This document shows positions 3 to 30,232 of a stretch of DNA of 64,000 nucleotides, piece by piece. Both the position numbers and the translations under genes were made by a program. Source of the DNA: a virus. Under the pieces are notes generated by a model. It was not told the DNA's origin and made no database searches. It was given only the letters and a program-made list of their open reading frames with translations. How positions within the stretch are numbered: the first letter of the stretch is position 1; each line of letters begins with the position of its first letter. The stretch lies in the IMG/VR virus record IMGVR_UViG_3300043395_003089, positions 1 to 64,000 of that record; one strand, given 5' to 3'.

Positions 3-155
3 GAGGCCCTCACCAGCGCTCGAAGCCTGATCGAGCGCTACGAGGCCGAGGAGCAGCTCCTACGTGAAGCTCAAGAGTCGCGGCCCCAAGAGGCCGACTT
101 GAGCGGTCCGTCGACGGCGGCGAGCACTTCGTCGAACGTGAGCCCGGCCGAGTAG
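3..155 (+). CDS. C-terminal end of an unknown plus-strand protein (partial)
   Basis: An open frame enters from the left edge and stops at TAG 153-155. The 50 visible residues are Glu/Arg-rich and probably helical, then turn into a Ser/Ala/Pro tail. Third codon positions are mostly G or C, as in neighbouring genes. It runs convergently into the end of the minus-strand gene at 71 with an 85-base overlap, which is long for this genome, so one of the two ends may be wrong. Confidence 0.4.
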   Translation, partial: EALTSARSLIERYEAEEQLLREAQESRPQEADLSGPSTAASTSSNVSPAE

Positions 156-1018
156 CCGGTGTCGTCATGCCGACCGGCGAAAACGTAGTTATGAACGCCA
201 GACGCGTCGGACTCGAAGCCACGAAATCCGTGGCCACCCTGAAATTGCTGGGGGCCATGCCCCGAGATCGTGCGCGAGCGCATCACGCGCCGCCCGTTGC
301 AGAGCAACACGTATTCGTTCGGCTTGGCACCGTCGGTGTAGCCCTGGCCGTACGGCTGCGCGTAGACCGTGCAATGCCGTACTGGAACCGCTGGTAGCCC
401 GTTCTCGTCGGTTGTGATGCCTTCGAGGATGATATCGAATGCGAGTGGACCTGGCGCAAACCGTGTGACCTTGACGAGCTCGCGCTCGCGCAGCGCCTGT
501 TCGAGCGCCGTGTGCATCTGGTTCGCGTCGCCGCTCTCGCTCGGCAGTGAGATCGTCGTATACGCGTTCTGTTCGAGGATGCCAAGGCCGTAATCGCGTG
601 GCGCCTGATCCTCGTCGTGAGCAACCACAACCGGCTCGCGGCTTGGCTTGAACGCCACGTCTCGAACGTTGGGGACGCGCTCCCCGACCGAGAACATCTC
701 GCGGTTCAGATCCTCGACGTCGGCATGGCGAGCGATCAGCTCCTGCGCCATTGCAGTAACGCCTGGGTTGTACTTCTCTGCCAAGCCGTCGAGCCGAGCG
801 AGAACCTTGTCGGCGACGCGGTCTGCGAACAGATCGATCAACTCGTCGATCTTCGTCGCGATCTTCGAGGGCTGCTTGGGCTCGCCCTTGAGATCTCGCA
901 CGATCGGGGCGCCGGCTACCGTCGCGGGCGGCTTGGGTGGTGTCGGACCGGCGAGAGTGCCATTGTGGGGGATAACGGTCGCGCCGAAGGGATGCTCGTG
1001 GGCCTTGTTGATGGTCAT
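71..1018 (-). CDS. Unknown phage protein, 315 aa
   Basis: I do not recognise a family. The N-terminus is Pro-rich and low complexity, followed by a helical stretch (about residues 50-85) and a mixed alpha/beta C-terminal half. A longer frame runs to 1207, but ATG 1018 is chosen because it overlaps the stop of the upstream gene as ATGA (1015-1018), the usual coupling here. It is the last gene of a two-gene unit with the transglycosylase-like protein, so a role in wall or virion biology is possible but unproven. Confidence 0.7.
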   Translation of the reverse strand: MTINKAHEHPFGATVIPHNGTLAGPTPPKPPATVAGAPIVRDLKGEPKQPSKIATKIDELIDLFADRVADKVLARLDGLAEKYNPGVTAMAQELIARHADVEDLNREMFSVGERVPNVRDVAFKPSREPVVVAHDEDQAPRDYGLGILEQNAYTTISLPSESGDANQMHTALEQALRERELVKVTRFAPGPLAFDIILEGITTDENGLPAVPVRHCTVYAQPYGQGYTDGAKPNEYVLLCNGRRVMRSRTISGHGPQQFQGGHGFRGFESDASGVHNYVFAGRHDDTGYSAGLTFDEVLAAVDGPLKSASWGRDS

Positions 1019-1530
1019 GCGCGCCAGCGTAAGACGCTCACGCGTCCGCGCCAACCACGCTCGATCAGGTTCGCTCGAAAAAGTCGGCTCTGCGGCATGA
1101 AACACGCGTGATGCTTGGCGCCCGACGCGCAGAGCTTGATCGCACGGTAGCCGCCGCCGTAGCCGAGCAGCTTGCAACGCTCGTTGTCGCGACATGCACG
1201 GCGCCACACGAGCAGATGCTGCGCGCCTTCTAGGTAGTTACTAACTAGATCGGAAGGCTGACAACGCGTCTGTGGGATCGGCGTCATCACGCCGCACGAG
1301 ACCTTGCCGCCGGCTTCGCGCGAGACGACGTTTTGCGTGTAGCGCGACTCGAACCACGCGATCGAGAGCAGGAGCGCCGGCCTGGTGTCCGTCACGATCC
1401 CGACGGCGAACGCCGAGGCCATGTGCTCGCGAGCGGTCTCGTGCGTCAGGTACGTCGGAGCTGTTCGTTGGAACGCCGCGACCTGCGCATCGTCGAGAAA
1501 CAACGAGACGAAGAAGGCTAGGAGCTGCAT
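1015..1530 (-). CDS. Small lytic-transglycosylase-like protein with export signal, 171 aa
   Basis: The N-terminus starts with a short hydrophobic stretch (MQLLAFFVSLFL) that may be a signal peptide or anchor. Residues about 50-90 resemble the start of an SLT/lysozyme-like fold: a helix with SIAWFESRYTQ, where the Glu is in the position of a transglycosylase catalytic acid, then a Gly-Val-Met segment like the family's GLMQ. Several Cys residues could form disulfides after export. It probably cuts peptidoglycan. The match is short and the C-terminal half is unfamiliar, so the family call is tentative. ATG 1530 lies 7 bases from a TAGCGT -10. Confidence 0.55.
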   Translation of the reverse strand: MQLLAFFVSLFLDDAQVAAFQRTAPTYLTHETAREHMASAFAVGIVTDTRPALLLSIAWFESRYTQNVVSREAGGKVSCGVMTPIPQTRCQPSDLVSNYLEGAQHLLVWRRACRDNERCKLLGYGGGYRAIKLCASGAKHHACFMPQSRLFRANLIERGWRGRVSVLRWRA

Positions 1531-1537
1531 GTCGCGG

Positions 1538-1546
1538 ACGCTAACA
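1538..1546 (-). promoter_or_regulatory. Extended -10 promoter of the transglycosylase-like gene
   Basis: On the minus strand TGT TAGCGT is followed by 7 bases and ATG 1530. There is no Shine-Dalgarno between, so transcription would begin almost at the start codon. Confidence 0.5.
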
Positions 1547-1554
1547 CGCTCGCG

Positions 1555-1854
1555 CTAGCGCAGCGCCAAGTGATTCAACTCGGCCGTTTCGTGCCAGCGC
1601 TCGAAGCGCGCGAGCTTGGCCTTCGAGCGTTCCTCCATGCGCGGGCCGTCGAGATTGCAGTGCTGCACGACGAAGATCATCGCGGCTTTGAGATCCGCCA
1701 ACTCGTCTTCGAGCCGCTCGCGTAGGTTCGTGCCGTCCCAGTGCGCTTCTAGGCCACGCGTCTGGATCAGCTTGCCGATCACCTGCAATGTCTCGCCGGC
1801 TTCCTCGGCTAGTTTGCTGAGACCGGGCCACTCGGTGTCGCCGAGCGCGAACAT
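1555..1854 (-). CDS. MazG-like nucleotide pyrophosphohydrolase, 99 aa
   Basis: An all-helical small protein with LAEEAGE near residue 15 and DELADL near residue 55. This is the EExxE ... ExxD metal-binding pattern of the all-alpha NTP pyrophosphatases (MazG/MazG-like), which hydrolyse NTPs or dNTPs to the monophosphate. The next gene upstream is a deoxyribosyltransferase-like enzyme, so both may act on the nucleotide pool. ATG 1854 is chosen over TTG 1866 because GGAG lies 8 bases upstream and ATG overlaps the previous stop as TGATG. Confidence 0.7.
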   Translation of the reverse strand: MFALGDTEWPGLSKLAEEAGETLQVIGKLIQTRGLEAHWDGTNLRERLEDELADLKAAMIFVVQHCNLDGPRMEERSKAKLARFERWHETAELNHLALR

Positions 1855-2312
1855 CACTCGCTCCAATGCGACGAGACACCGTCGATCTTGAACGGCACCG
1901 ACGCGGCCGTGTCATCGGCCTTCGATAGTCGCCGCAGGAAGTCGGCGATCTCGGCGTCGTAGTGCGAGTGGTACTGCGCGAGCGCGGGCGTGAAGATCGG
2001 CCGGTGTCGACCGGACATCACGATCAAGCGACCGAGCGTGAAGGCACGACCGAGCTCGACGTAGGCACCAACGGTCTCGCACTCGGGCAGGAGCAACCAG
2101 AACACGCCGGCTTGCTCGACTTCGTGCAAGCACTGGTTGATCGCCCACTGCTTGTACTGTTCGATCGTCGCGCCTTGTGGATTCGCCCTGCCGACCTTGC
2201 GGATGTTGTCGACCCACGTTGACGTGATCTCGATGCCGACTTCGCGCAACCGATTCATCCAGCGTTCCGCGCGCGTGATCTCTTTGCTCGCACCTGCGAT
2301 GTAGACTTTCAT
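1854..2312 (-). CDS. Nucleoside 2-deoxyribosyltransferase-like protein, 152 aa
   Basis: Begins MKVYIAGASKE, the first strand and loop of the N-deoxyribosyltransferase fold, and has GAYVELGRAF near residue 85, matching the family motif that carries the nucleophilic Glu. Members exchange bases on deoxynucleosides or hydrolyse dNMPs. A small zinc-ribbon-associated cluster lies upstream and a MazG-like gene overlaps its stop by one base. ATG 2312 is fixed by the dyad promoter 7 bases upstream. Confidence 0.7.
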   Translation of the reverse strand: MKVYIAGASKEITRAERWMNRLREVGIEITSTWVDNIRKVGRANPQGATIEQYKQWAINQCLHEVEQAGVFWLLLPECETVGAYVELGRAFTLGRLIVMSGRHRPIFTPALAQYHSHYDAEIADFLRRLSKADDTAASVPFKIDGVSSHWSE

Positions 2313-2319
2313 CGCAAGG

Positions 2320-2344
2320 GTTGTACCTCGGTGGTCTGCCAGCT
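2320..2344 (-). promoter_or_regulatory. Dyad promoter element, copy A
   Basis: Minus-strand AGCTGGCAGACCACCGAG, then G and TACAAC, with 7 bases to ATG 2312. The element contains the imperfect dyad GCTG-N6-CACC (consensus GCTG-N6-CAGC). It overlaps the TAG stop of the preceding small gene, an arrangement repeated at most copies. Confidence 0.8.
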
Positions 2345-2492
2345 AGCGATCTCGTCGGTTTCCGTCTCGGACGGCTTCCTCGACGCGCTCCAAAAGCTCC
2401 TTGAGCATTTGAAGCATCTCGTTGTGGCGCCTCTTTGCGTTCACGTCGAATTCGCGTAGCAGCGTGATCAATTCTTCTAGGTGATGGCTCAT
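2343..2492 (-). CDS. Small helical protein, 49 aa
   Basis: ATG 2492 overlaps the stop of the zinc-ribbon gene as TGATG, and GGAGGG lies 8 bases upstream. The product is almost entirely amphipathic helix with many Glu, Arg and Leu and could form a coiled coil. Its TAG stop forms the first bases of promoter copy A. Function unknown; the coupling on both sides makes it likely to be a real gene. Confidence 0.65.
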   Translation of the reverse strand: MSHHLEELITLLREFDVNAKRRHNEMLQMLKELLERVEEAVRDGNRRDR

Positions 2493-2809
2493 CAGCGGCC
2501 CTCCTTCGCTTGAGCGAGTTGTGATCGTCGACGCTCGGCCGCTTCGCGTTTGCGTCGCTCGACATTGCGCTCTGCGGCGGCTTGGGCGTCATCGCGTGAC
2601 TGATAGAGTGCCTTGCGGTCACGCGGGCAAACTTTCATGACGCGCGCGACGTGTTCGCACGTGGCGCACCAGTACAGCACCTGCACATACGCTCTTGGAT
2701 TGACAGGAACCTCCCAACCGAAGCCACGATAGCTCACGCGTTCGAGCACGCGGTAGCGTGTGACGAGTGGCCCACCGCAGATCGGACACGTGATCAACTT
2801 GCGTGCCAT
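2492..2809 (-). CDS. Zinc-ribbon protein with charged helical tail, 105 aa
   Basis: CPICGG near the N-terminus and CATC near residue 50 would form a four-Cys zinc ribbon. The last 45 residues are an Ala/Glu/Arg-rich helix. This is a nucleic-acid or protein adaptor architecture common in phage accessory genes; no specific role can be given. ATG 2809 is preceded by GGAG 8 bases upstream, inside the end of the previous gene. Confidence 0.7.
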   Translation of the reverse strand: MARKLITCPICGGPLVTRYRVLERVSYRGFGWEVPVNPRAYVQVLYWCATCEHVARVMKVCPRDRKALYQSRDDAQAAAERNVERRKREAAERRRSQLAQAKEGR

Positions 2810-2811
2810 CA

Positions 2812-3333
2812 CTACTCCTGGCGCGGGAATTTCTTGCCGAGCCACTGCGCGAGCGCATCGAGCGCGCTCGTCACGTACGGAAACTCAGCGTCGCGGGTGT
2901 AGCCGTTGGGCTCGAATCGCGTGTGGCGCAGCTTGTCGAGCAGCGTGTGAAGATCTACGCCGTGTTGCAGCGCGATGCTCATGATCGTCGCCGTGGCATC
3001 GAGCGCACCGCTCGCGAGGCTGCCCGACCGATCGGCCTTGATGAAGATCTCGCCAGGTCGACCATCTTCGTAGAGCCCGACGTTGAAGTAGATCTTCATC
3101 AGCTCGACCGCAGGTGTCGGCGCGATCACGCCTTCTAGCCAGGCGCACGCCGAGTGCACACAATGCGAGACCGTGGGATCCAACTTGCCAGCAGCTTGTT
3201 CTTGTTCGGCGAGTCTCTTCAGATGCGCGAGGCCCTCTTTGATCTCGGGGGGTAGCCCGTCGTTGGCTTGGTAGGGCAGCGCGAAGCGACGGGTCATGCC
3301 CGTGCGTTCGGTCGCGAGCGATTGGCGTTTCAT
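2812..3333 (-). CDS. TSCPD-domain protein (ribonucleotide reductase-associated fold), 173 aa
   Basis: The segment from VELMKIYFNVGLYEDGRPGE through IMSIALQHGVDLHTL to TRFEPNG matches the TSCPD domain found at the end of B12-dependent ribonucleotide reductases and as a stand-alone phage protein. Here it is stand-alone, and no reductase catalytic subunit is in the window. Role inferred as nucleotide metabolism or regulation. ATG 3333 is set by promoter copy B, 9 bases upstream; an in-frame Met 13 residues later is a weaker alternative. Confidence 0.75.
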   Translation of the reverse strand: MKRQSLATERTGMTRRFALPYQANDGLPPEIKEGLAHLKRLAEQEQAAGKLDPTVSHCVHSACAWLEGVIAPTPAVELMKIYFNVGLYEDGRPGEIFIKADRSGSLASGALDATATIMSIALQHGVDLHTLLDKLRHTRFEPNGYTRDAEFPYVTSALDALAQWLGKKFPRQE

Positions 3334-3342
3334 CGTCGCGTT

Positions 3343-3367
3343 GTTGTAGCGCGCTGCTCTGCCAGCT
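3343..3367 (-). promoter_or_regulatory. Dyad promoter element, copy B
   Basis: Minus-strand AGCTGGCAGAGCAGCGCG, then C and TACAAC, 9 bases before ATG 3333. The dyad GCTG-N6-CAGC is perfect. Its upstream edge touches the -10 of the divergent lanthipeptide-like gene, so one regulator could affect both. Confidence 0.8.
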
Positions 3368-3372
3368 ACAGT
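3367..3372 (+). promoter_or_regulatory. -10 hexamer of the lanthipeptide-like gene
   Basis: TACAGT on the plus strand, 9 bases before ATG 3382, back to back with copy B. No Shine-Dalgarno is visible, so the transcript would be nearly leaderless. Confidence 0.5.
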
Positions 3373-3381
3373 TGAGCTCCG

Positions 3382-3606
3382 ATGAAGAAAATCAAAGCCA
3401 CGAAACTCACACTGCGCGCCGAGACCATCAAGTTGCTGACCGAGCCGGCGCTCAGAGAGGCCGCAGGTGGCATCTCGACCCAGGGCTGCATCACTACAAC
3501 GTGCCAGTACACCGTCGGCGTGACCTGCAACTCGGTCAACCCGTGCACGTATGGGCCGACGCAGACCATTTGCATCACCTACGTTCAACGAACTTGCGCT
3601 GCGTAG
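3382..3606 (+). CDS. Lanthipeptide-like RiPP precursor peptide, 74 aa
   Basis: The first 30 residues look like a class I lanthipeptide leader: MKKIKATKLTLRAETIKLL, then an acidic/helical TEPALREAAGG ending in a double Gly. The remaining 44 residues are Thr-rich and carry six Cys (in GCIT, TTTCQ, VTCN, NPCT, TICI, RTCA), the composition expected of a core that receives (methyl)lanthionine rings. It is the only plus-strand gene in the first 8.9 kb. No LanB, LanC, LanM, protease or transporter is seen nearby, so any modification would rely on host enzymes or genes elsewhere. A small secreted disulfide protein is the main alternative, but there is no signal peptide. Confidence 0.7.
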   Translation: MKKIKATKLTLRAETIKLLTEPALREAAGGISTQGCITTTCQYTVGVTCNSVNPCTYGPTQTICITYVQRTCAA

Positions 3607-3610
3607 GTCT

Positions 3611-3910
3611 TCATTTCTTGGGCTCCTTCGTGGGCTCCTTGCCGTAGATCAGCTCGCGGATCTCGATGGTCGTCTTGCCCTTGAGCTGCTCGAAGTCCTC
3701 ATCGGAGACATCGGCGCCGACCAACGGCCGCTGAGTGCACCAGCTCGTGCGGATGTTCTTGGCGAGCTTCGCCTCGTTGGCGACTTGTTCGCTCGGTGGA
3801 AGCGGATCTTCCTGTGCGCGCACGAGCGCGAGCGCGGCTTCATTGGCCGCTTCTGCGCTTTCGGCAACGGTGTAGACGTCGTAGATCACCAGCGTGTTGT
3901 AAAGGCGCAT
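3611..3910 (-). CDS. Unknown protein, 99 aa
   Basis: Starts with a beta-rich stretch (MRLYNTLVIYDVYTVAES), followed by charged helices and a Lys/Pro/Glu tail. No family recognised. ATG 3910 follows the HNH gene by 3 bases with GGGAG upstream. It ends convergently 5 bases from the lanthipeptide-like gene. Confidence 0.65.
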   Translation of the reverse strand: MRLYNTLVIYDVYTVAESAEAANEAALALVRAQEDPLPPSEQVANEAKLAKNIRTSWCTQRPLVGADVSDEDFEQLKGKTTIEIRELIYGKEPTKEPKK

Positions 3911-3913
3911 CGA

Positions 3914-4405
3914 CTAATCACTCCCTCTCTGCGCTTGGCGCGCAGCTTTCTTTCGTGCGGTAACCGCACGATTGGCTTCATAGCGGCACTGGCGGCAGTA
4001 GCGCCCCTTGGTGCCATTACGCAACTCGTAGAGATAGGTATTTTCCGGCGTGTAGGCGTGACCATTTGGGCAAGCGTCAACGCGTGCGTTACGGCCAGCC
4101 CAACCGACCCCGCGTAGCAGATTTGTTTTGTTGGTCACTAGTTCTAGATGCGCCGGGTTCACGCAACAACGAACACGACATAGATGATCGATTACCAAGT
4201 CGTCACTAATCGGCCCACGCAGGCGCTGATAGCTATATCGATGCGCTAGCGTGTTGTTGTGCTTCAACTCTGGTAGGTAGACCACGCCATAACCGCAACG
4301 ATGCCAGCACCCGAGCCACAACCAGCACCCGGTGATTGGGCAAGGATATACTTGAGCCCAGAACGACTCCTCTAAACGATCGTCACCGAAGTTAATGTGG
4401 CTCAT
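3914..4405 (-). CDS. HNH endonuclease, 163 aa
   Basis: Contains VIDHLCRVRCCVNPAHLE followed by VTNKTN, the HNH_3-type motif (D-H-x-C ... C-x-N-P-x-H-L) of free-standing phage homing endonucleases, plus two further Cys pairs toward the C-terminus (CPNGH, CRQCR). Such enzymes nick or cut DNA and spread themselves. ATG 4405 is chosen over an upstream start at 4531 because it overlaps the previous stop as ATGA. Confidence 0.85.
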   Translation of the reverse strand: MSHINFGDDRLEESFWAQVYPCPITGCWLWLGCWHRCGYGVVYLPELKHNNTLAHRYSYQRLRGPISDDLVIDHLCRVRCCVNPAHLELVTNKTNLLRGVGWAGRNARVDACPNGHAYTPENTYLYELRNGTKGRYCRQCRYEANRAVTARKKAARQAQRGSD

Positions 4406-5043
4406 CGTGCTCGTGGCAGTGCGTAGGCCATCTGATAGAGCCCTCGATCCCACGCGATCGTGAAGGCCCGGCGAAGTCGATCGTTCTTGTCGTTGCGTAG
4501 CGTTGGTTCGAGACCGGTCACGTCGACGCAACGCGCATAGCGAATGTCATCTTGGAAGCGCTCGGCGGTCTCGCCGAGGCGCTCGAAGGTGCGGAGCCAC
4601 ACGTCGTTGTAGACCGTGCCGCCGCCGTGGCTGTTGGCGATCTTGAGCTCGATGCAGCGCTGGCCGGCGATGATGAACGGTAGGCTCTTAGCGTCCATAT
4701 CGATCGCGCAGAGCAGCGCTAGCCGCCACAATTGGTGCCGATCCATCTCGATCGTTTCGTAGGCGAGCATCGAATCGTCACGACGCCGTAGGATGTCAAT
4801 GAATCGCTCTACCTCATCGGTGTGCCCGAACGCCGGGGACGCGTGTTCTCGTACGCGTTGATAGCAGTCGAGCGCGAGCGTCGCGGCGTTCCAGCCGTCG
4901 CGCCATGGGATCGAGAACAGGTTCTCGGTCCAAGGCGCCTTCGCCGAGGAATCGAGCACGCTCACGAGCATCGCGAGATCGTCGTCGATCTTCGGGCGTC
5001 CGGGCTTACGCTTTGGTGGCTTGCGGCGTTGCTGCTTGGCCAT
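4402..5043 (-). CDS. Unknown protein with basic N-terminus, 213 aa
   Basis: The first 20 residues are Lys/Arg/Pro-rich and end in a GRPK AT-hook-like motif. The remainder is helical with two Trp-rich segments. No family recognised. ATG 5043 is supported by promoter copy C, 6 bases upstream. It is translationally coupled to the HNH gene through ATGA. Confidence 0.7.
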   Translation of the reverse strand: MAKQQRRKPPKRKPGRPKIDDDLAMLVSVLDSSAKAPWTENLFSIPWRDGWNAATLALDCYQRVREHASPAFGHTDEVERFIDILRRRDDSMLAYETIEMDRHQLWRLALLCAIDMDAKSLPFIIAGQRCIELKIANSHGGGTVYNDVWLRTFERLGETAERFQDDIRYARCVDVTGLEPTLRNDKNDRLRRAFTIAWDRGLYQMAYALPRAR

Positions 5044-5362
5044 GCGAGGGTTGTACCTCGCTGCTCTGACAGCTAATCCGTACGGCGCGCGGACCAAGGA
5101 TCTCGATCTGGCGCTCGCGGCTGAGCCCTCGGAAGGGGGTCCCTACGTGGTTCCAGATCTGCGCGTGACGTGCGCACAAGTAGATATCCGGCTCCTCGTC
5201 TGGCTCCTCGAATGTGTACTCGTCGTCGACGACAAACGTCGCAGGAGCGCCACAGATCCAATCGGCTTCGAGCCCGCCGTTCGCGATGCGTCGACGTTCC
5301 ATCTCACCGCGTGCAACGCCCATATACAACGCCTGATGGTTATCGAACACGCACGTACGCAT
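5006..5362 (-). CDS. Unknown Cys/His-containing protein, 118 aa
   Basis: Residues about 1-80 contain CGAPAT, an acidic loop and YLCARHAQIW, resembling a small metal-binding module. The last 25 residues are encoded across promoter copy C and the first codons of the next gene, so the C-terminal tail may be non-functional read-through. ATG 5362 lies 2 bases after the previous stop. Confidence 0.6.
   Translation of the reverse strand: MRTCVFDNHQALYMGVARGEMERRRIANGGLEADWICGAPATFVVDDEYTFEEPDEEPDIYLCARHAQIWNHVGTPFRGLSRERQIEILGPRAVRISCQSSEVQPSHGQAATPQATKA
5050..5074 (-). promoter_or_regulatory. Dyad promoter element, copy C
   Basis: Minus-strand AGCTGTCAGAGCAGCGAG, then G and TACAAC, 6 bases before ATG 5043. 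It lies inside the 3' end of the preceding gene. Confidence 0.8.
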
Positions 5363-5364
5363 CT

Positions 5365-5523
5365 TCAGAAGACCAATCGGCCGCTATAGATGTCGCGGCA
5401 TATGAACGGTACCTGGTAGTAGTCACACAACGCGCGGTTCACCAACCGCCGAACGTCTGGCGTTGCGCGGCTATCAATGTCGAGCAGCTTGACGAGGCAT
5501 GCGATCATGAATTGCTCGATCAT
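5365..5523 (-). CDS. Small unknown protein, 52 aa
   Basis: ATG 5523 overlaps the preceding stop as ATGA, and the stop lies 2 bases before the next ATG, so it fits the operon exactly. The product starts with a hydrophobic helix (MIEQFMIACLVKLLDI) followed by an Arg-rich part with two Cys. Function unknown. Confidence 0.6.
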   Translation of the reverse strand: MIEQFMIACLVKLLDIDSRATPDVRRLVNRALCDYYQVPFICRDIYSGRLVF

Positions 5524-6017
5524 CGCCCGCGTTCTTTCCTGATCAACGCGACGAACAGCCCGTGGCCAAACGGCAACAACTCCTTCGCGATCTTGTAGGC
5601 GTCCGGCGGGATGTCTTTGTCGGCCTGCAAGATCGCATCGCGGGCTACTTCGAGCTCGCCCTTCATTAGCTCATCGAGCCACAACTGGTGCACGAAGATC
5701 GTCACGATGTGGCTATCGCGCCGTAGAAACAACTCGCAAGGCCCGAGCGTACCGGTCCAATAGCGCGCGTAACGTGCCCAGTAGGACACGTTGCCGTGTC
5801 GTTCCTCGACAACGTTCGCGGTGTTCAGCTCGCCCGAATACACGTTGTAGACGTGCGCGTGGTCGCTGCGGTACCGCGGGATCTCGATCTTGATGTTCGG
5901 CGTGATCTGGATCGAGACACGCTCGGGCGAACCGCCGCCGGCAAGACGGATCATGTCAGCAAGCGGTTTCTCGATGCGTCGAATCGTGAACGCGACGTCT
6001 TTGGGCAGGGTCCACAT
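5520..6017 (-). CDS. Unknown protein, 165 aa
   Basis: Mixed alpha/beta protein with no recognised family. Residues 30-70 are predicted strands, followed by a Tyr/Trp-rich centre and a helical C-terminal half. ATG 6017 is preferred to an upstream start at 6077 because it overlaps the previous stop as TGATG. It lies in the operon driven from the helicase gene. Confidence 0.65.
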   Translation of the reverse strand: MWTLPKDVAFTIRRIEKPLADMIRLAGGGSPERVSIQITPNIKIEIPRYRSDHAHVYNVYSGELNTANVVEERHGNVSYWARYARYWTGTLGPCELFLRRDSHIVTIFVHQLWLDELMKGELEVARDAILQADKDIPPDAYKIAKELLPFGHGLFVALIRKERGR

Positions 6018-6217
6018 CAGGCGATTTCGATTTGCGTGACTACCGAACAGACGCCTACGAGGTTTCGAGTTTCCCAATGCGTCTGAAGCTTTTGTAGGAA
6101 AACGAACGGATTTTCTCCCCAGGCGCGATTATCGACGCGATCACTGAATTCCTTGCCGCACTTCTCGCATGTCGCGTGCCAGTAGTTTCCGTCGTCGGTG
6201 CGTCGCAGGATGAACAT
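6017..6217 (-). CDS. Small zinc-finger-like protein, 66 aa
   Basis: HATCEKCGKEF near residue 15 gives one Cys pair, and a lone downstream Cys near residue 57 could contribute. The shape resembles a degenerate zinc ribbon. ATG 6217 has GAGG upstream within the end of the helicase gene. Function unknown. Confidence 0.6.
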   Translation of the reverse strand: MFILRRTDDGNYWHATCEKCGKEFSDRVDNRAWGENPFVFLQKLQTHWETRNLVGVCSVVTQIEIA

Positions 6218-6219
6218 CG

Positions 6220-8859
6220 TTACTCGTCCTCGGGCAACGCAACCTCGCCGTCGCCGGGCACCAACTCTAGCCGCGGATCAGTGTGGCGCCAGAGCCGAAA
6301 GTGCCGCTGCCCGTTGACGTTCTGTTGCTCGATGCGGAACACGCGTTCCACGTGCGTCGAGCGCAACTTGCTGACGAGCGTACGCGGCGTGTCTTTCCAC
6401 TGAATCTGCTTGCTCTGCGCGAACGTTTCTAGCTCGGCGTGGAGCACGTTCGCGTTGACCGTCCGGCCGATGTTCGTGGGCGCGTGACGCGACTTGTAAC
6501 CGATCCACTGTTCGAGCAGCTCGACCAACGGGTCTTCCTCGTTGACGAATGCGTCGCGCTCGCCTTGGAGCGCCGACAGAACGTGATCAACATCGTCGGT
6601 GCCCCATCCGAGCACGCGGCCAATCACGCGACCAAGCGCCGCGAACGACGCCATGCGGAAGCGCTCGTTGCGCGTCGAGAGTCCGCCCTCGGCACGGATG
6701 CGCGCGGAGATCTGGCCCAGAAACCAGAGGTATTCGCCGAACAGCGCCCCGCGGTTATCGAGTAGATCGTTGACGAGCGTGCCGCGATCGGTGAACGACT
6801 GACGACGATCGAAACGCAAGATCAAGCAACGATCGGCGACGTCATCACGGCGAAAGCTCGCCGGGTTGCGCGTCGCGACCGCGATGAAGCTCTGCGGCTT
6901 GATCACGAGGTTCTCGTCATCGGTGAATAGCCGCCGCTTGTGCCACTTCGCGCCGGTTGCGTACGCGGCGATCGCATCGGGCACCCAATCGATGAAGCTG
7001 TCCGTGTTGTCGAACAGCGCGATCGGCGAGCGCGTTAGGATCACGCCGAAGTCGTCTTCCTTGTTTCGTTGGAGCACCATCGGATGCTCGGCGCCGGTCA
7101 GAACCAACTGCGCGTGCGTCACGCATGACGTGTTGTGCGTGACCGTGAAGTCACCGAGCAAGAATCGGCCGTCGCCGTCGAGCTGGAAGCCGAAGTATTC
7201 GCCGTCGCCGATCGGCTCGATCTTGAACCCAGTACGTAGGACGTCTTTGACTTGTTGACGTGGCTTGGCTTGCTTGCGCTTGAGCTTGCACGGAATGCGA
7301 TCGATGTGACCACTGATCGTCACGCGATAGTAACTACCCTCGAAGCCGATCGACTTGATCGTCGCCCACTTGATCGTCGAGTACGCCGCGAAGCCTAGGC
7401 TGCGCGCCAAAAACAGCACGTCATCGCGAAGGCCGACATCCTTCATGGTGATCTCGTAGTAGTTGTTCCCGAGGTAGCCGTCGGTATCTAGAAGCCCAGC
7501 AAGCAGGTTTAGCCGCACGGGCTCGCTATTGATGAGGTACTCGCGTGGGATTCGTTTTTCTCCGTCGACGACACAGGTCTTGAAGAACGTACGGAGCGGG
7601 TTTCGTCCAGCGCCGCCGAGCGCCCCAGACGTGAAATGGCAAGTCACGACGCCGTTGCGTGGGTCGACATGCTTGCGGATAGTCAAGCCGTGTTGTGTCG
7701 CGATCTCCTCGCAATAGGCGTGGATCTCAGTGTCGTTTTTGGTGATCGCGGCGCCATCCTTGTGACCGTCACCAAGCCATAGCCCAACCAGATACGGCTC
7801 TACGCTTACGGCCCGCGTTGGGAAATAGACGGGGCAGCGAAACAACAGCGCCTGATCACGGCCGAGCGCCGTGTAGCGTTGGTAGCGCTTGAATTCACCG
7901 ATTTCTGCGTCGACGATCTTGTTTCGGTTGATCCATTCGTTGCGCTTGTTCTTGTGGCCGCTCAACACGACCGTTAGCACATGCGCATCGTTGCAGACGA
8001 ACGCGTCACCCTTGATCGGCGTTACGCGATAGAGCGGCCCGTGGCCTTTGGTGGTTCCAGAAACTCGACGCGGCTTCGAGTCGGGCCCCATCACAAGATC
8101 ACCGTCGACAACCCGCTCGACGGGCTTGACCGAGCCGTCGAACATCAACACAGGCGTTCCGCGGCCGAGACACTTACCCGCCCCCATCACGCCCTCGACG
8201 AGCAGGATCGGCTTGTCGATCAACAAGTCAGGAAACGCCAGCGCGAAGATCCAGATCGTGAGCGCCTTGCGTTGCAGCTCGGGCGTGATGCCCGCGAGCC
8301 CCGCCGCGGCGAAATTCGGGTTGGTCAGCCGTTCGAGCAGCATGCCGTGCGGCCCGATGTCGGGATTCGCGCATGGATGTCCGTCGTCGTCGTCGGCGAA
8401 GAACACGCCGTCCTCGCCGTTGGTGACGCGCGTGATCGCCTCGCCGTCGATCTTGTACATGCAGCCGTCGTAGTTCGAGATGTAGCCCGTCGTCGTGCGC
8501 GGATCGCACGCAGCGAACCGGCGCATCTCGGCCTTGACGCCCTTACGCTGGATGTAGTGCCGCACGGCATCGTGGATCGCCGTGGTCCACGGTTCGTGTT
8601 CGAGCAGCCCATAGGTCTCGTTGAGGTACCCGAACCACGCCGCGCCGCCGCGGTTCGGCACGCGCAAGACTTCATGCGACGCGCCGATCACCGCGTACAT
8701 CTGCCCGCCGGGCTGCGCGAGCACGAATTGCGTGCCGCTGACGAGCTCCTGTTCGAGCACGTAGTGCCAGATCGCGAGCCGCTTGTGGCGCGCGTCTAGC
8801 CGATCATCGCGCATGATGCGGCCGACGCGCATCCGGTGTTCGGCGCCACTAACAGACAC
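6220..8859 (-). CDS. AAA+-like replicative helicase/primase-helicase with intein, 879 aa precursor
   Basis: After removal of a 347-residue intein (230-576) the host protein is 532 aa. The joined Walker A reads GVMGAGK-T. Later blocks include SPIALFDNTD as a Walker B-like strand, AVATRNP as sensor 1 and DRCLILRF with a candidate Arg finger, an arrangement seen in phage SF3/primase-helicase ATPases. The N-terminal 200 residues are not recognised and could be a primase remnant or a DNA-binding part. GTG 8859 lies 8 bases after the -10 of copy D; ATG 8832 is the alternative. It is transcribed divergently from the plus-strand replication block. Confidence 0.8.
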   Translation of the reverse strand: MSVSGAEHRMRVGRIMRDDRLDARHKRLAIWHYVLEQELVSGTQFVLAQPGGQMYAVIGASHEVLRVPNRGGAAWFGYLNETYGLLEHEPWTTAIHDAVRHYIQRKGVKAEMRRFAACDPRTTTGYISNYDGCMYKIDGEAITRVTNGEDGVFFADDDDGHPCANPDIGPHGMLLERLTNPNFAAAGLAGITPELQRKALTIWIFALAFPDLLIDKPILLVEGVMGAGKCLGRGTPVLMFDGSVKPVERVVDGDLVMGPDSKPRRVSGTTKGHGPLYRVTPIKGDAFVCNDAHVLTVVLSGHKNKRNEWINRNKIVDAEIGEFKRYQRYTALGRDQALLFRCPVYFPTRAVSVEPYLVGLWLGDGHKDGAAITKNDTEIHAYCEEIATQHGLTIRKHVDPRNGVVTCHFTSGALGGAGRNPLRTFFKTCVVDGEKRIPREYLINSEPVRLNLLAGLLDTDGYLGNNYYEITMKDVGLRDDVLFLARSLGFAAYSTIKWATIKSIGFEGSYYRVTISGHIDRIPCKLKRKQAKPRQQVKDVLRTGFKIEPIGDGEYFGFQLDGDGRFLLGDFTVTHNTSCVTHAQLVLTGAEHPMVLQRNKEDDFGVILTRSPIALFDNTDSFIDWVPDAIAAYATGAKWHKRRLFTDDENLVIKPQSFIAVATRNPASFRRDDVADRCLILRFDRRQSFTDRGTLVNDLLDNRGALFGEYLWFLGQISARIRAEGGLSTRNERFRMASFAALGRVIGRVLGWGTDDVDHVLSALQGERDAFVNEEDPLVELLEQWIGYKSRHAPTNIGRTVNANVLHAELETFAQSKQIQWKDTPRTLVSKLRSTHVERVFRIEQQNVNGQRHFRLWRHTDPRLELVPGDGEVALPEDE
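7132..8172 (-). mobile_element. Class 1 intein with LAGLIDADG endonuclease in the Walker A motif
   Basis: Residues 230-576. It begins with Cys (CLGRGTPVLMFDG) directly after GAGK and ends FTVTHN, followed by Thr as the +1 residue. Two LAGLIDADG motifs are visible: GLWLGDGHKDG and LLAGLLDTDGYLG. The insertion splits the P-loop between Lys and Thr, so ATPase activity requires splicing. Confidence 0.92.
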
Positions 8860-9253: not shown

Positions 9254-9522
9254 TGGCGAACGAAGACTCGACACCCGGTATCTGGCAGAACGAGCGATGG
9301 ACCATCGTCTTGGCGCATGTCACGCACTGCATTTGGTCGCTCGGTTCAGCTTCAGCTTCCCGTGAGCATGCAGATCACCTAGTGATTCATTTTTCTGATG
9401 GCGGGATGCTTGAGCTATACGCGACAGACGCAACCGGCCCCGAGGCGCGAACCGCGGCGCGGCTAGAGATGGGTGATAGCTTCGTGCGAGCGCTCAACCA
9501 ATACTGGGAGACCAAGCGATGA
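9253..9522 (+). CDS. Unknown protein, 89 aa
   Basis: Trp-rich N-terminal half with alternating hydrophobic residues suggesting beta strands, and a helical end. ATG 9253 overlaps the previous stop as TGATG; the stop overlaps the helicase start as ATGA. Function unknown, but tight coupling ties its dosage to the helicase. Confidence 0.65.
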   Translation: MANEDSTPGIWQNERWTIVLAHVTHCIWSLGSASASREHADHLVIHFSDGGMLELYATDATGPEARTAARLEMGDSFVRALNQYWETKR

Positions 9523-12128
9523 TCACCGAGCTATCGAACAAGCCCGGCTTCTATCGCGTCTCGATGACCGAGCAACGCATCGCGCAGCTCGTCGGCGTGC
9601 CGGGCATCAAGTGGGATCTCGACGAAGATCTCTGCATCAAGGCCACGCATGCGACGATGCCGCGCAACGCGCTCGCGCTCCTCGATGATCCTGAAGCGAT
9701 CAAGATCCTCGAAGCCGCCAAGCAGCCCGGCGACTGGGAGGCGCGCGAAGCCCATTGGGCGCAGCTCGGCGTCAAGCCGCGTACGACGCAGCATCAGGCG
9801 ATCGACTTCATCGAAGGGCGCCGCGGCACGCTGCTCGCCGACGATATGCGCGTAGGCAAGGGGCATCCATTGTGGACACGCGTGCTCACCCCTGATGGCT
9901 GGATCACGATTGGCGCATTACAAGTCGGATCCGCCATTTTCGGTAGTGACGGCCGACAGCATCGCGTGACCGGTATTTTTGATCGTGGCCGACTACCCGT
10001 CTATCGTGTCCGGTTCTCGGACGGAGCATCTGTCCTAGTCGACGGGGATCATCTATGGCAAGCGTGGGATCATAACGCGTGGGCTCGTGGTGGTGCTCCA
10101 CAGATCCGATCGACGGATGTGCTGCTCGCGGATCTGACATACACGAATGGCAATCGAAAGTGGCGGATCCCGATGGTTCAGCCGATCGAGTTTCCGCCGT
10201 GCGAGTTGCCGATCGATCCTTACGTGCTTGGTGTGCTTCTCGGTGACGGCTCGTTCTGTGGTAGCTCTGTCGTGTTCACGCCCGGTGATGAACTAGTTCC
10301 GAAGGAAGTCGAGCGACGGCTACCGTCTGATGTGCGTCTCGTCGCAGACGCACGAGACGATCGCGCTACAACGTGGCGCATCAGCCGACGATCGGTTCAA
10401 AACAGCGTCCGAGCTGTACTCAACACCCTTGAGCTTTGGGGTTTGAGCTCAGCTGACAAATTTGTGCCCGACGTCTTCCTGTTCGCATCGATCGAACAAC
10501 GACTAGCGTTGCTGCGCGGCTTGATGGACACCGACGGCGAATTTTGTGATGGGCATGTCGCATTCTCGTCGGCGTCGAGAGCACTCGTAGATGCCGTCCG
10601 ATTTCTCGTCGAGAGTATGGGTGGTTGCGCGCGTGAGCCTAAGCCGAGAGAAGCGCCACGCTATACGTACCGCAACGAGAAACGAATCGGCCTTCCCTCG
10701 TTCCGCTTGAACATCTCGATGCCGGAAGGAATCTCGCCGTTCCTGACGCGCCAAGGCTACCAACCCCACTCTAAGTATTTTCCATCGAGGACGATCGCAG
10801 CGATCGAGCCTGCCGGTGTTGAGCACGTGCGCTGCATTTCTGTGGACGCGCCTGATCGCCTATACGTGACCGAGCACTGCATCGTCACACACAACACCGG
10901 TTCATGCGTCGGCGCGCACGATCCCGCGCGTGGCCCGCTTGTCGTCGTCGGGCCGCTTCCGTCGCGCGCTGTGTGGCTCGGCTGGTTCAAGCGGCTGTTT
11001 CCGGGCGTGCCCGTCGGCGTCGCGATCGGCCGCTCGTTCGATACGCAGGTCATGCACCAGCCGATCGTATTCGCGCACTACGACGTGATCCAGCACTGGC
11101 GTGCGATGTTCAAGATCGGCACGCTCGTGTTCGACGAGGCGCACGCGCTCTCGAATCCACGCGCGAAGCGCACCGAGGCCGCGGTGGTGCTACAGGCCTA
11201 CGCCGAATGCGTGGTCGCCGCGACCGGCACGCCGATCTGGAACCGACCGGCGACGATGCACTCGATCCTCGGGCTCGTCGCGCCCGGCGCGTGGGGTTCC
11301 GAGTACGACTTCGCGAATCGCTACGGCGCACCCGTGACGTCGGCCTACGGAACCAAGTACGAGGGGATCTCGAACGCCGAGGAGCTGCACGCGCGCCTCG
11401 GTGACGTGATGATCCGTCGACGGTGGCAGGATGTCAACCAAGACATCCCGCCGATCTCGCGCAGTGTGATCGTCGCCGAGGTGACCGAAGCCGAGCGCAA
11501 GCGGCTTGACATCCTCGCCGGAAAACTGAAGGGCGAGCGCTCGAACACGGCCGCGAATCTCGCCGCGTACCGACGGCAGATCACGAAGCTCAAGACCGTC
11601 GTGACGGTCGCCGAGGCCCAGAAGATCGTCTCGCGCGGCGAGCCTGTTGTCGTCTGGACGTGGCATCGCGACTTCGCGGAGCTACTCGCCGATCGTCTCG
11701 GTACGCCCTACGTGATCCACGGTGAGATCAACACCAACGAGCGCGAGCGACGCATGCAAGCGTGGAAAGACTCGCTCGTGCCGATGCCGCTCGTCGCGAC
11801 GATGGCCGTCGGGCAAGTCGCGATCGATCTCTCGCACGCGCGGTTCGCGATCTTCGCCGAAGTCGACTACATCCCGGCCGTGATCGCGCAGGCCGAGATG
11901 CGGACGTTCGAGGCCTCGCGGGCGATGTTCATCACGTTCGTGATCGCGAATCACATCGTTGATCAACGTCTCGTGCGTGCGCTCGTCGCCAAGTTGGCCT
12001 CGGCGGATCCGCTTGGCGTCGCGGCGGCGCGCGATTCGATCGATGCGTTGCGTGAGGCCCTCATGGGCCCCGAGGACCCGGGCGACTTGGATCGTTTGCT
12101 CGAAGATCTGATCGCGAGCGCGGCATGA
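9519..12128 (+). CDS. Snf2-type SF2 DNA helicase/translocase with intein, 869 aa precursor
   Basis: The spliced product is 524 aa. After a 90-residue N-terminal part, motif I reads LLADDMRVGK-T, motif II is LVFDEAHALSN and motif III is AATGTPIWN. The C-terminal RecA-like domain includes PVVVWTWHRDF and a TMAVGQVAIDL segment, as in small phage Snf2/DEAD-like helicases used in replication. ATG 9519 is coupled to the previous gene by ATGA. It is disrupted at motif I by an intein, at the same Lys-Thr step as the helicase encoded divergently at 6220-8859. Confidence 0.88.
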   Translation: MITELSNKPGFYRVSMTEQRIAQLVGVPGIKWDLDEDLCIKATHATMPRNALALLDDPEAIKILEAAKQPGDWEAREAHWAQLGVKPRTTQHQAIDFIEGRRGTLLADDMRVGKGHPLWTRVLTPDGWITIGALQVGSAIFGSDGRQHRVTGIFDRGRLPVYRVRFSDGASVLVDGDHLWQAWDHNAWARGGAPQIRSTDVLLADLTYTNGNRKWRIPMVQPIEFPPCELPIDPYVLGVLLGDGSFCGSSVVFTPGDELVPKEVERRLPSDVRLVADARDDRATTWRISRRSVQNSVRAVLNTLELWGLSSADKFVPDVFLFASIEQRLALLRGLMDTDGEFCDGHVAFSSASRALVDAVRFLVESMGGCAREPKPREAPRYTYRNEKRIGLPSFRLNISMPEGISPFLTRQGYQPHSKYFPSRTIAAIEPAGVEHVRCISVDAPDRLYVTEHCIVTHNTGSCVGAHDPARGPLVVVGPLPSRAVWLGWFKRLFPGVPVGVAIGRSFDTQVMHQPIVFAHYDVIQHWRAMFKIGTLVFDEAHALSNPRAKRTEAAVVLQAYAECVVAATGTPIWNRPATMHSILGLVAPGAWGSEYDFANRYGAPVTSAYGTKYEGISNAEELHARLGDVMIRRRWQDVNQDIPPISRSVIVAEVTEAERKRLDILAGKLKGERSNTAANLAAYRRQITKLKTVVTVAEAQKIVSRGEPVVVWTWHRDFAELLADRLGTPYVIHGEINTNERERRMQAWKDSLVPMPLVATMAVGQVAIDLSHARFAIFAEVDYIPAVIAQAEMRTFEASRAMFITFVIANHIVDQRLVRALVAKLASADPLGVAAARDSIDALREALMGPEDPGDLDRLLEDLIASAA
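9861..10895 (+). mobile_element. Class 3-like intein with LAGLIDADG endonuclease in helicase motif I
   Basis: Residues 115-459. The first residue is Gly (GHPLWTRVLTPDGW) rather than Cys or Ser. The class 3 signature is present: Trp180 in block B (GDHLW), Cys439 in block F (VRCISVDAP) and Thr457 in block G (CIVTHN). Endonuclease motifs are LGVLLGDGSF and LLRGLMDTDGEF. The +1 extein residue is Thr. In class 3 inteins the block F Cys replaces the missing N-terminal nucleophile. Confidence 0.88.
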
Positions 12129-17919: not shown

Positions 17920-20900
17920 ATGGCAGATGGCGAGCGCGTTAGCTTGCCGTTGCTACGCGGCGTGACCGATGGTGCCGACTGCGGCTCGTGTCCGCTGTCG
18001 TCGCTCGGCATGCCCAATCGCCCGGTGTGCGGCGAGGGCCCCGAAGATCCCAAGTGGATCATCATCGGCGAGGGCCCTGGCGCGTTCGAGGTGAACCGCA
18101 ACAAGCCGTTCTGCGGCCCGAGCGGTCAAGTCGTCAACCAGATCCTCGGCAAGATCGGCGCGGATCGTTCTACGATCTGGGTTACCAACGCCACGTTGTG
18201 CGTCGAGGGCACAACACAGGTACGCCTCGGAGATGGCTCACTAGAACGTATCGATCGACTGGTCGCTAGCCGCTACACGGGGGAGGTTCAAACGATCGAC
18301 CACGACGGATCGATCACGACTCGACGTGTGACTGGCTGGCATAGAAACATGCGTGGCACTCGTGAGATGCGCAATGTCTCATTTCGTTGGGCTCAACGCG
18401 CGGGCGCGCGTGGCCGAACGCACGCAGTGCTAACCGAAGATCATCCGGTTTTGACGCCTGATGGTTGGCGTAACGCGGCTGAGATCACTGGTGGATTGAT
18501 CGCTACTGGTGACCGTGCGCCGTCGGAAATCGCACAGCAAATCGCCTGGGGCACATTGTTAGGTGATGGCACGTTCGCACGTGGAAGTTTGGTTGTCCGC
18601 CACGCGCGCGATCAACGCGAATACGTGGAAGCTAAAGCACGCGCACTCGCTGGCTTTGGGGTCTCGCCGATCTTTGCTCCTGCAACCGGTTTGCAGGTGC
18701 AAGATCAATTTGGGTTTAGGACACAGGCCGGCGCGTGGGGCCACGCTACACATGACTTGTTCTATCCCGACGGGAAAAAGCGGATCCCGCGAAGCGTTAT
18801 CGAGAACGCCACCGATCTTTTGTTCGCGATTTGGTACCTCGACGACGGTTCGATGCAACATCGAGGTAGCAGACGTCCAAATGCCGAGATTTGCGGGGCC
18901 GGATTCCCGGAGGAAGATCTACGTCTCGCAGGGGCGGCTCTAGCCGCGCGTGGGTTCGAGAATGTCGTTAGAAACGGGCGTATTCGATTCAACGTAGAAG
19001 CTGCCGCGAGATTCAGCCAGCGAATCGCGCGGTTTGTTCCACCAGCGCTCGATTACAAGCTACGTCCAGAAGATCGCGGTCAGTATGACCCGTCAACATA
19101 TGCCACTACTGCGGCGAGACCATTCTTCGATCAGGCCGAGAGTGTTTGCACGAGCCCCCGACGTAAAGGCGAGGGCGCAACCGTTTACTGCCTAGACGTC
19201 GAAGATACGCACAACTTCATCACGCCTGGCGCTGTCGTACACAACTGTCAGCCGCCATCCGGTGCCGACGTTCAGACGCGCGAGCGCGCCGCGGAAGCAT
19301 GTCGCGGGCGATTGATCAACGAGCTGTCGTGGTTTCCCGGCAAGCCGATCCTGACGTTCGGCGCCGTCGCGGCACGCGCTGTGATCCCGAAGGCCACGCT
19401 CGACATGATCGAGCCACCCGAGACGATCAAGGCGCTCAAGAAAGCCCAGAAGCTTCGGCAACAGCCATCGCTGAAAGCCGCGCGCACCAGGCGTAAGGCG
19501 ATCACCAAAGCCGCCGAGAAACGCCTCAAGTTTCTCATCAAGCAGCATCGCAAGAACCTGACGACGATCTACAAGGTCAGGCACAAGCAACGCCCGCCCG
19601 AGCACGTGCTCCGCGAGGAAGTGCTGCGCGTGCAGGCCAAGCTCGAACGCAAGGCCAACGAAGACGCGATCAAACTGGTTGATCTGCGCGCAAAAGAGCG
19701 CGCCCTCAAGGCCTTGCTCAAGGCCAAGCAGCCCAAGAAACCAAAGAAGCCCAAGCAGGTCAAGATCACCGACATCTGCGGGACGCTGTTCGACGTCGAC
19801 GTAGACGGCTCCGGCGAGCGACCCGTCGTGCCCGCGATTCATCCGGCGGCGCTTCTACGTGGCGGCGGCGCGTCGATCGGTGGCTCGCACACGCCAGACA
19901 TGGCGTTCGTCAACCTGATGTACGACGCGGGGAAAGTCCAGAGCCTCGCGAACGGCATCGATATCCGGCTGCGCCCGAACCTCGAATTCGCGCTCTACGA
20001 TCAACAGCACGTCGGCGAGCTGTTCCTCAAGATCTACCACAGCGCGCTCGAAGAGGGCGCGTGCTCGATCGACCTTGAGACCTACGTCGACGATCCCGAG
20101 CGGCACCACGCGCTCATGGCGTATGTCGCCAAGATCAAGGTCATCGGCATCGCGACGAGCGAGCTATCGGTCTCGCTGTCGTGGGAGCTGTTCCCGGCGT
20201 GGGCACAGACGCTACTACAGGTCTTGCTCTCACGCGTCTCGTGCACGTTCCACAACGGGCTCTACGATCGCACAGTCCTGCGCGCGTACGGCTTCGTGAT
20301 GTGCACCGAGAACTTCGAGGACACGCTCCTCGGGCACCACGCATCGTTTCCGGGCAACTCGCACCGGCTACAGATCGTCACGAGCCAGTTCTACGGCGTG
20401 GGCCCCTGGAAAAGCGAGTACCGCAACCAGGAAGAGACCCTCGAAGGCCTCGCGAAGTACAACGCGCTCGATACCGCCGCGACGCACGCGCTCCGTCGGC
20501 CGTTGTTCAAGCACATCGCGCGAACAAAAACTGAACGTGTTTATAACCTCGACAAGTACATGAGCGACTGCGCGAGCCACATGCATCTCGCGGGCATGCC
20601 GGTCGATCGCGATATCAACAGTCAGCTCCTCGCAACGTTCTCGAAAAACGTCGCCGAGGCACGGCGTCACGTCGAGGACATCGCGCGTGATCCCAAGCGG
20701 CGCGAGATGATCTGGCACTACCTCGCGATCGCGCAAGCGGGTAAGGCTCGCAAGCTGGACCCGCCCGACTTCGAGGCGCGCTACCAGCTGCGCCTATCGG
20801 CGATGCAGCTCGATCCCGACTGGAAGTGGAAGATCAACGCCGGCAAGCACATCGCGGCGCTGCTCCAAGCGATGGGCGTCGAGCTCATCGCGACGACAGA

Positions 20901-22788: not shown

Positions 22789-23219
22789 AACGAGATCTGC
22801 TGGACGTCGTTCACTTGCCAGTGGCCTCTCGTCACGATGGCTGCCTTGTTCGGGAGGGCGTGATGGGAGCAACGTTCGGCGTCTACGGGCACTGCACCGT
22901 GCGAAAGCCACCAACAATGAACCAGTGGCGTCCTTCAAGGGCGAGCGACATCACGTGGCAGCAGGCTGAGGCGAAACACCCGGAGTGTCTCGTTGCATGG
23001 GATCAACTCTGTCTCCGATTCATGGGTAAGTGGGAGATCCGAACGATGTACGAGAGCGCAGGGCTCTGCTTGGTCATCGGCGTCGCGGCGCTGGAGTCGG
23101 CGGAGTGGGCGTTCTTCAGTTACGAGCCGATCTCGCAGGAGTGGCTTGAGTCGCCCCGAAGGTCTCGATCTCCCAGGTCCTCGGCAAGCGGTTCAACGCC
23201 GAACTTCGAGGAGCCTTAG
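22785..23219 (+). CDS. Unknown protein, 144 aa; C-terminus doubtful
   Basis: ATG 22785 overlaps the polymerase stop as ATGA; ATG 22863 is an alternative. The first 115 residues look normal, with an aromatic-rich core. The last 27 residues are Ser/Arg/Pro-rich and unlike the rest, while the neighbouring frame over the same bases reads PKVSISQVLGKRFNAEL, so a one-base error or mutation near 23,155 is possible. The TAG stop overlaps promoter copy I as at other loci. Confidence 0.55.
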   Translation: MKRDLLDVVHLPVASRHDGCLVREGVMGATFGVYGHCTVRKPPTMNQWRPSRASDITWQQAEAKHPECLVAWDQLCLRFMGKWEIRTMYESAGLCLVIGVAALESAEWAFFSYEPISQEWLESPRRSRSPRSSASGSTPNFEEP

Positions 23220-23242
23220 CTGGCAGAGCAGCGAGCTACCGT
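23218..23242 (+). promoter_or_regulatory. Dyad promoter element, copy I
   Basis: AGCTGGCAGAGCAGCGAG, then C and TACCGT, 6 bases before ATG 23249 of thyX. Confidence 0.8.
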
Positions 23243-30121: not shown

Positions 30122-30232
30122 CTAAAACGTAGCCTTAGCAGCCTCGTCCAGATGGCAAGCATCCTTGCGTGTCTTGAGCTGCTTGAGTGTTTCGGTGTTG
30201 AGCGAGAGCTTGGTGTTCTTGATTTTCTTCAT
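30122..30232 (-). CDS. Short RiPP-leader-like peptide, 36 aa
   Basis: The product starts MKKIKNTKLSLNTETLKQL, which lines up with MKKIKATKLTLRAETIKLL of the lanthipeptide-like precursor at 3382. The remaining 17 residues contain one Cys and one Thr and no double Gly, so it looks like a leader with a minimal or degenerate core. AAGGA lies 8 bases before ATG 30232. A second frame (MPYGTCRGLMKQPT...) covers the same bases and is coupled to the upstream stop, so this call rests mainly on the similarity. Confidence 0.5.
   Translation of the reverse strand: MKKIKNTKLSLNTETLKQLKTRKDACHLDEAAKATF

Follow-up and report, generated by a model that had tools for sequence, protein, structure and literature searches.

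A candidate orphan precursor of a class I-type lanthipeptide in an uncultured phage-like virus

Class I lanthipeptide cluster calls by antiSMASH need a modifying enzyme. Such clusters have been reported, as antiSMASH clusters, in Streptomyces prophages (PMC10023795). Sublancin, from the Bacillus prophage SPbeta, is an S-glycosylated glycocin with a cognate immunity protein, SunI (PMC6391423). The anti-phage lanthipeptides of Streptomyces are host-encoded defences (reviewed in PMC12360287). The sequence-only reading of the locus studied here had considered RiPP precursors in phages as rarely described. This statement needs a qualification, as class I clusters are known in Streptomyces prophages. 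For an orphan precursor alone, no report on phages was found in a literature search incomplete in coverage, and the silence of the literature is thus weak evidence of novelty.

The present locus lies in a virus record of 89,167 bp, whose first 64,000 bases are the whole stretch of DNA analysed here (the window). Positions 1-370 of the window and 88,798-89,167 of the record are ~370-base repeats of each other that differ by a small indel; therefore, the record, though classed without end repeats, is likely to be complete or to have terminal redundancy. We give about even chances to the reading that the ORF at 3382-3606 (+) encodes an orphan lanthipeptide precursor of class I type, carried by a phage as accessory cargo, which host enzymes would turn into an active product. 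The earlier proposal of a lanthipeptide-like precursor on a phage-like element is supported, on the grounds of the profile similarity of its leader and of the other phage-borne precursors described below. The features concerned are the following (window positions):

3382-3606, + strand: lanthipeptide-like precursor gene, 74 aa (ORF, NF038153 match, leader HMM)
3382-3471, + strand: leader, residues 1-30, with a K-L-T-L-x-x-E-T-I motif and an AAGG end (NF038153 alignment; identity with the L288 leader)
3472-3603, + strand: core, 44 aa, with 6 Cys, 11 Thr and 2 Ser (sequence)
3347-3368, - strand: copy of a repeated promoter-like element, facing the leftward gene 2812-3333 (14 strict copies)
2812-3333, - strand: divergent neighbour, 173 aa (gene calls; conserved in 5 relatives)
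3611-3910, - strand: convergent neighbour, 99 aa, no function assigned (gene calls; conserved in 7 relatives)
30122-30232, - strand: second leader-type ORF, 36 aa, leader-only, MKKIKNTKLSLNTETLKQLKTRKDACHLDEAAKATF (leader HMM E 5.7e-4; NF038153 7.7 bits)
38613-39566, - strand: tyrosine integrase/recombinase (PF00589, E 8e-19)

The lineage of this virus comprises at least 23 uncultured virus records, 22 related records having been brought in by a conserved 234-aa protein (L008:4005-4706; record position 67002-67706) that is present in at least 23 uncultured virus records and in no phage or plasmid record. The structure model of this protein is all-beta and of low confidence (pLDDT 58), with no significant fold match; its non-significant fold matches are mostly jelly-roll capsid proteins, so that a capsid protein is one possibility, in a poorly known lineage of viruses whose genomes measure about 80-220 kb. 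Searches of 50,697 phage records and 72,556 plasmids with parts of the virus revealed no close relative. Tyrosine integrase matches are present in 14 of 16 relatives, and the virus is possibly temperate. Other genes of the record encode SNF2 and UvrD helicases and an intein-bearing protein with UDG-like and family A DNA polymerase similarity, PHROG matches include endolysin-like and tail-spike-like proteins, and no portal or capsid family was found in the record. Intein or homing-endonuclease domains occur in three large replication-type proteins (6220-8832, 9519-12128 and 17920-22788), and the intein of the first resembles inteins in phage terminases.

The locus had initially been placed at 3343-3606, with a 74-residue rightward product. 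This product is encoded at 3382-3606 (+) and consists of a 30-aa leader, MKKIKATKLTLRAETIKLLTEPALREAAGG, followed by a 44-aa core, ISTQGCITTTCQYTVGVTCNSVNPCTYGPTQTICITYVQRTCAA; the start at 3343 takes in an upstream element, and the ORF itself starts at 3382. According to codon-based gene calls, all other genes from 71 to 8832 are leftward and rightward genes are found from 8933; therefore, its description as the sole rightward gene in an 8.9-kb leftward block is correct within 0.1 kb. The ORF fills the 277-bp space between genes 2812-3333 and 3611-3910. Without it, this space would be a 277-bp gap compared to a median gap of 25 bp, but since 11 of the 141 gaps reach at least 270 bp, the gap alone is weak coding evidence. 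The codon score per codon of the precursor frame is positive and modest (+0.14, compared to a median of 0.26 for called genes), the other + frames scoring -0.44 and -0.17 and one - frame +0.09. The ribosome-binding site is weak, with merely GAG upstream of the start codon.

The region 3343-3369, which reads TGTAGCTGGCAGAGCAGCGCGCTACAAC on the minus strand, contains a TAGCTGKCAGMSCAGCGMGSTA-like element with 14 strict copies in the record (consensus TAGCTGKCAG..CAGCG.GSTA; copies at 2324-2345, 3347-3368, 5054-5075, 23217-23238 and roughly ten further positions), all of which precede a same-strand start codon at a short distance, with 0 expected by chance. For most of the strict and looser (~20) copies, the distance to the called same-strand start codon that follows is 7-12 bp. 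The element was absent from 16 related viruses and gave no match when used as a query in IMG/VR, and it looks like a virus-specific promoter for short-leader or leaderless transcripts. Since its copies sit before same-strand start codons, the copy at 3347-3368 was assigned to gene 2812-3333. The precursor ORF had been credited with a promoter of its own; this claim is not supported, as the element is directional and points at the leftward gene, and a sigma-70 consensus scan found no site for the ORF. The ORF may nevertheless be transcribed.

The modest codon score, the weak ribosome-binding site and the lack of a promoter found are what would be seen if, instead of encoding a functional precursor, the ORF had arisen by chance or encoded a small phage protein that is unrelated and whose N-terminus happens to resemble L1a leaders. 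This alternative, which ranks first among those weighed here and which we nevertheless consider unlikely, is also favoured by the lack of any full-length homologue: no close homologue of the whole 74-aa peptide was found in viral contigs, genome contigs, phage records, plasmids or the PDB, nor any full-length relative among the matches inspected in 195 Myxococcota genomes. The latter matches are mostly unrelated or low-complexity frames, and one weak match (E 0.065) is a true L1a precursor (genome G084).

The sequence-only reading had ascribed a class I lanthipeptide-like leader to the product and had proposed a profile search, in which a lack of leader similarity would speak against it. This search revealed a real similarity. 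The sole NCBIfam match of the precursor is NF038153 (class I lanthipeptide leader L1a), with residues 1-30, including AAGG at residues 27-30, aligned with positions 1-32 of the model; its score of 15.5 bits (16.6 when the whole genome was searched) does not reach the curated cut-off of 22, a point in favour of a chance ORF, although the full model is aligned. In the genome search, the precursor is the only NF038153 match across the whole record; Pfam and PHROGs gave no match for the 74-aa peptide. A leader HMM was also built from 15 leaders of bacterial loci only, without viral leaders and independently of the curated model. It was used to search 37,935 stop-to-stop ORFs (at least 25 codons) from 17 related virus records, with reversed genomes as decoys. 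The top three ORFs were G001:116919-117248+ (E 8e-10), G000:30122-30256- (E 5.7e-4; G000 is the record of the present virus) and the precursor ORF (E 0.0073). As the best decoy had an E of 0.51, the precursor leader is closer to bacterial L1a leaders than expected by chance, which argues against a chance ORF. The same can be said of the second leader-type gene, which is located in this 89-kb record too and scores better still, and of the layout of the product, with the leader at the N-terminus, then the GG end, then the Cys/Thr core.

To find precursors in further viruses, a DNA-level screening was carried out with two high-GC patterns: one for K-L-[ST]-L-x-x-E-T-[IL], which led to G001 in viral contigs, and a looser one, which led to L288. 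Matches were kept only if they were near the N-terminus and followed by a Cys-rich tail, most others being unrelated proteins. It should be emphasized that part of the leader identity of G001 and L288 is selected, since the search itself required the motif residues; it did not require the N-terminal MK, the GG or the Cys core. G001, a 221-kb virus record, is a distant relative of the present virus (30 or so proteins in common, up to about 64% identity). Its precursor (..KKTIKKLTLKTETIKQLNDVQLGQVAGG followed by MTGSICVGCSGTVCPSGGQNPCPQSVTLCSGLNCTANTCVTACGSCQGCNG; 10 Cys) has a GTG start with an AAAGGAG site ahead and scores above the NF038153 cut-off (24-24.9 bits compared to 22); a synteny comparison shows that the precursor genes of the two viruses are in non-corresponding positions. 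L288 belongs to an unrelated 76-kb phage with an integrase (PF00589) and a weak RecT match. The leader of its precursor (MKRHKTKLWLNAETIRMLDGPEFRVVVGG followed by AKPSVAEPLTCITCVFGTCTCRDCDTSQLIC) shows 53% identity over 30 aa with the leader studied here (E 3e-5), and, in the 20 kb around the gene, this leader is the only match to any protein of the present virus. Just upstream of this phage precursor, a lipoprotein-like gene with a TCFPSCGG stretch (L267:182-520, -) is possibly host-borrowed.

Another relative, G213, carries two divergent GG/Cys-rich paralogues, MKRKQRSKLKLSRLTVRQLDHVRAGG... and MKRKRKLKLSRLTVRQLDRVRAGGG..., each located directly after, or overlapping, an upstream gene. Their leaders are at noise level in the leader HMM search (E about 0.5 and above), and neither the G213 nor the L288 peptides have any NCBIfam match. 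A query joining both paralogues gave three weak matches in Myxococcota, inside frames of 174-237 codons. In G213, one GG/Cys-rich gene is close to the homologue of gene 2812-3333, but G206 and G207 carry no such gene at that place. In total, GG-leader/Cys-rich genes are present in 3 of the 17 lineage records (G000, G001 and G213) whose sequence was covered completely or almost completely (16 relatives and the present virus); six further lineage records, searched with NF038153 only, were negative. From their sequences, G001 and L288 clearly appear to carry the same kind of orphan precursor, and G213 perhaps does. The leader type is alike across these viruses and the cores are divergent. The leader reading gains strength from these precursors of other phages, whose leaders are of the same type, and the same architecture in a relative and in an unrelated phage is hard to reconcile with a chance ORF.

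The sequence-only reading had also proposed to look for LanB and LanC elsewhere in the virus genome, and neither was found. No LanB, LanC or LanM was detected among the large genes of the record that were scanned, and PF04738 is absent from G000 and G001. A phmmer search of 17 virus records with bacterial LanB and LanC, queries that recover each other strongly, gave nothing beyond one chance-level match of the LanB query (E 0.0095). The ORFs in 20 kb around the L288 precursor gene do not include LanB or LanC either. The LanB and LanC that a class I system encodes with its precursor were thus not found in the virus. LanB is present in 6 of the 7 bacterial genomes chosen from the leader-motif search, several with a LanC-like gene beside it. 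Since 17 of 189 Myxococcota genomes carry L1a leaders and peptides like these were also found in Acidobacteria, groups of this kind are plausible hosts, no more; a prophage search of Myxococcota and Acidobacteriota with the 234-aa protein gave no match and no integrated copy, an empty result that is not proof. Modification of the precursor by host enzymes would be compatible with the data.

The second leader-type ORF shares MKKIK-TKL-L--ET-K-L with the 74-aa precursor, has a codon score above the median of called genes and an AAGGA site upstream. It lacks a GG, and none of the downstream frames contains a Cys-rich core; it could be either a leader-only peptide or a remnant. Together with the lack of LanB/LanC in these viruses and the existence of anti-phage lanthipeptides in Streptomyces (PMC12360287), a leader-only gene in the same virus would suit an anti-RiPP counter-defence by substrate mimicry. 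According to this second alternative, which we judge improbable, the full precursor and the leader-only peptide would titrate the LanB/LanC or the leader peptidase of the host and blunt host lanthipeptides, some of them perhaps anti-phage. However, a pure decoy would not need the Cys/Thr-rich cores kept in the precursor, G001, G213 and L288, the leader-only gene may be a remnant, and the known anti-phage case comes from another phylum and another enzyme setting. An active cargo is thus more likely than a decoy, which would be the more surprising of the two.

The core is as previously described, with 44 residues, six Cys and many Thr after the double Gly (6 Cys, 11 Thr and 2 Ser), so that a double-Gly leader end is followed by 13 Ser/Thr and 6 Cys, as in class I lanthipeptide precursors. 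For each of the six Cys, a Ser/Thr of its own is available as a partner 2-6 residues upstream (permutation P 0.08), and the ring-compatible Cys/Thr spacing of the four phage cores combined has a P of 0.012, which is suggestive, not strong. Since a GG leader is common to several RiPP classes, the host enzyme could conceivably be a radical-SAM protein or another non-LanBC enzyme. This third alternative, which appears doubtful, draws on the weak match of the G001 peptide to TIGR04149 (rSAM-modified RiPP) and on the ease with which Cys-rich rSAM peptides and lanthipeptides are confused (PMC11118758), but the best model is that of a class I lanthipeptide leader and LanB is present in the bacterial genomes that carry this motif. 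The least probable of all, an unmodified secreted or structural disulfide-rich small protein, would agree with the even number of Cys (six) and with the lack of a modifying enzyme on the virus, but the N-terminus is, by eye, a charged L1a-type leader ending in GG rather than a signal peptide, a sequence search of the PDB found no structural homologue, and no Cys spacing is common to the cores of related viruses.

If the ORF is a precursor delivered as cargo, it would be expressed probably in the lysogen or during infection, and its leader would be bound by the host's own LanB/LanC, on the assumption that the host encodes them. Thr and Ser would then be dehydrated and Cys would close (methyl)lanthionine rings, a host peptidase or exporter would cut the leader off after GG, and the ring-bearing product could serve phage and host as a bacteriocin, a signal or a superinfection factor. 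A dependence on enzymes supplied in trans would predict a conserved leader and a free core, as in these viruses. This cargo reading is suggested by the leader match, the second leader gene, the G001 and L288 precursors, the ring spacing and the presence of LanB in the motif-bearing genomes but not in the viruses; against it weigh the NF038153 score below the cut-off, the lack of any NCBIfam match for the G213 and L288 peptides, the occurrence in 3 of 17 lineage records, the ring-spacing P of 0.08 and the fact that host LanB/LanC are assumed.

Overall, phages may feed peptides into the host peptide factory or jam it. If modification of the peptides takes place in trans, phages would serve as a reservoir and a shuttle of new lanthipeptide cores matched to host enzymes; a decoy role would make the peptides a counter-defence against immunity based on lanthipeptides. 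Under either the cargo or the decoy reading, the conserved leader is a handle for finding more cases.

Compared to class I L1a precursors (NF038153), the product has a similar leader length, the K-L-[ST]-L-x-x-E-T-[IL] motif, the GG end and a Ser/Thr/Cys core, but it scores below the cut-off, is phage-encoded and has no LanB/LanC found in the virus. As in the Streptomyces prophage clusters (PMC10023795), class I lanthipeptide capacity would be located on a phage element, whereas here the precursor is alone and the virus lineage is unrelated. Sublancin (PMC6391423) is likewise a prophage-encoded modified peptide of benefit to phage and host, but it is a glycocin accompanied by SunI, whereas the present peptide is lanthipeptide-like and no immunity gene was recognised. 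The Streptomyces anti-phage lanthipeptides (PMC12360287) also act at the phage-host interface and would be a possible target if the phage gene were a decoy, but they are host-encoded, in contrast to a phage-encoded precursor. Taken as a whole, phage-borne lanthipeptide clusters were already known, whereas no earlier description of an enzyme-free precursor travelling on a phage came to light in the literature covered.
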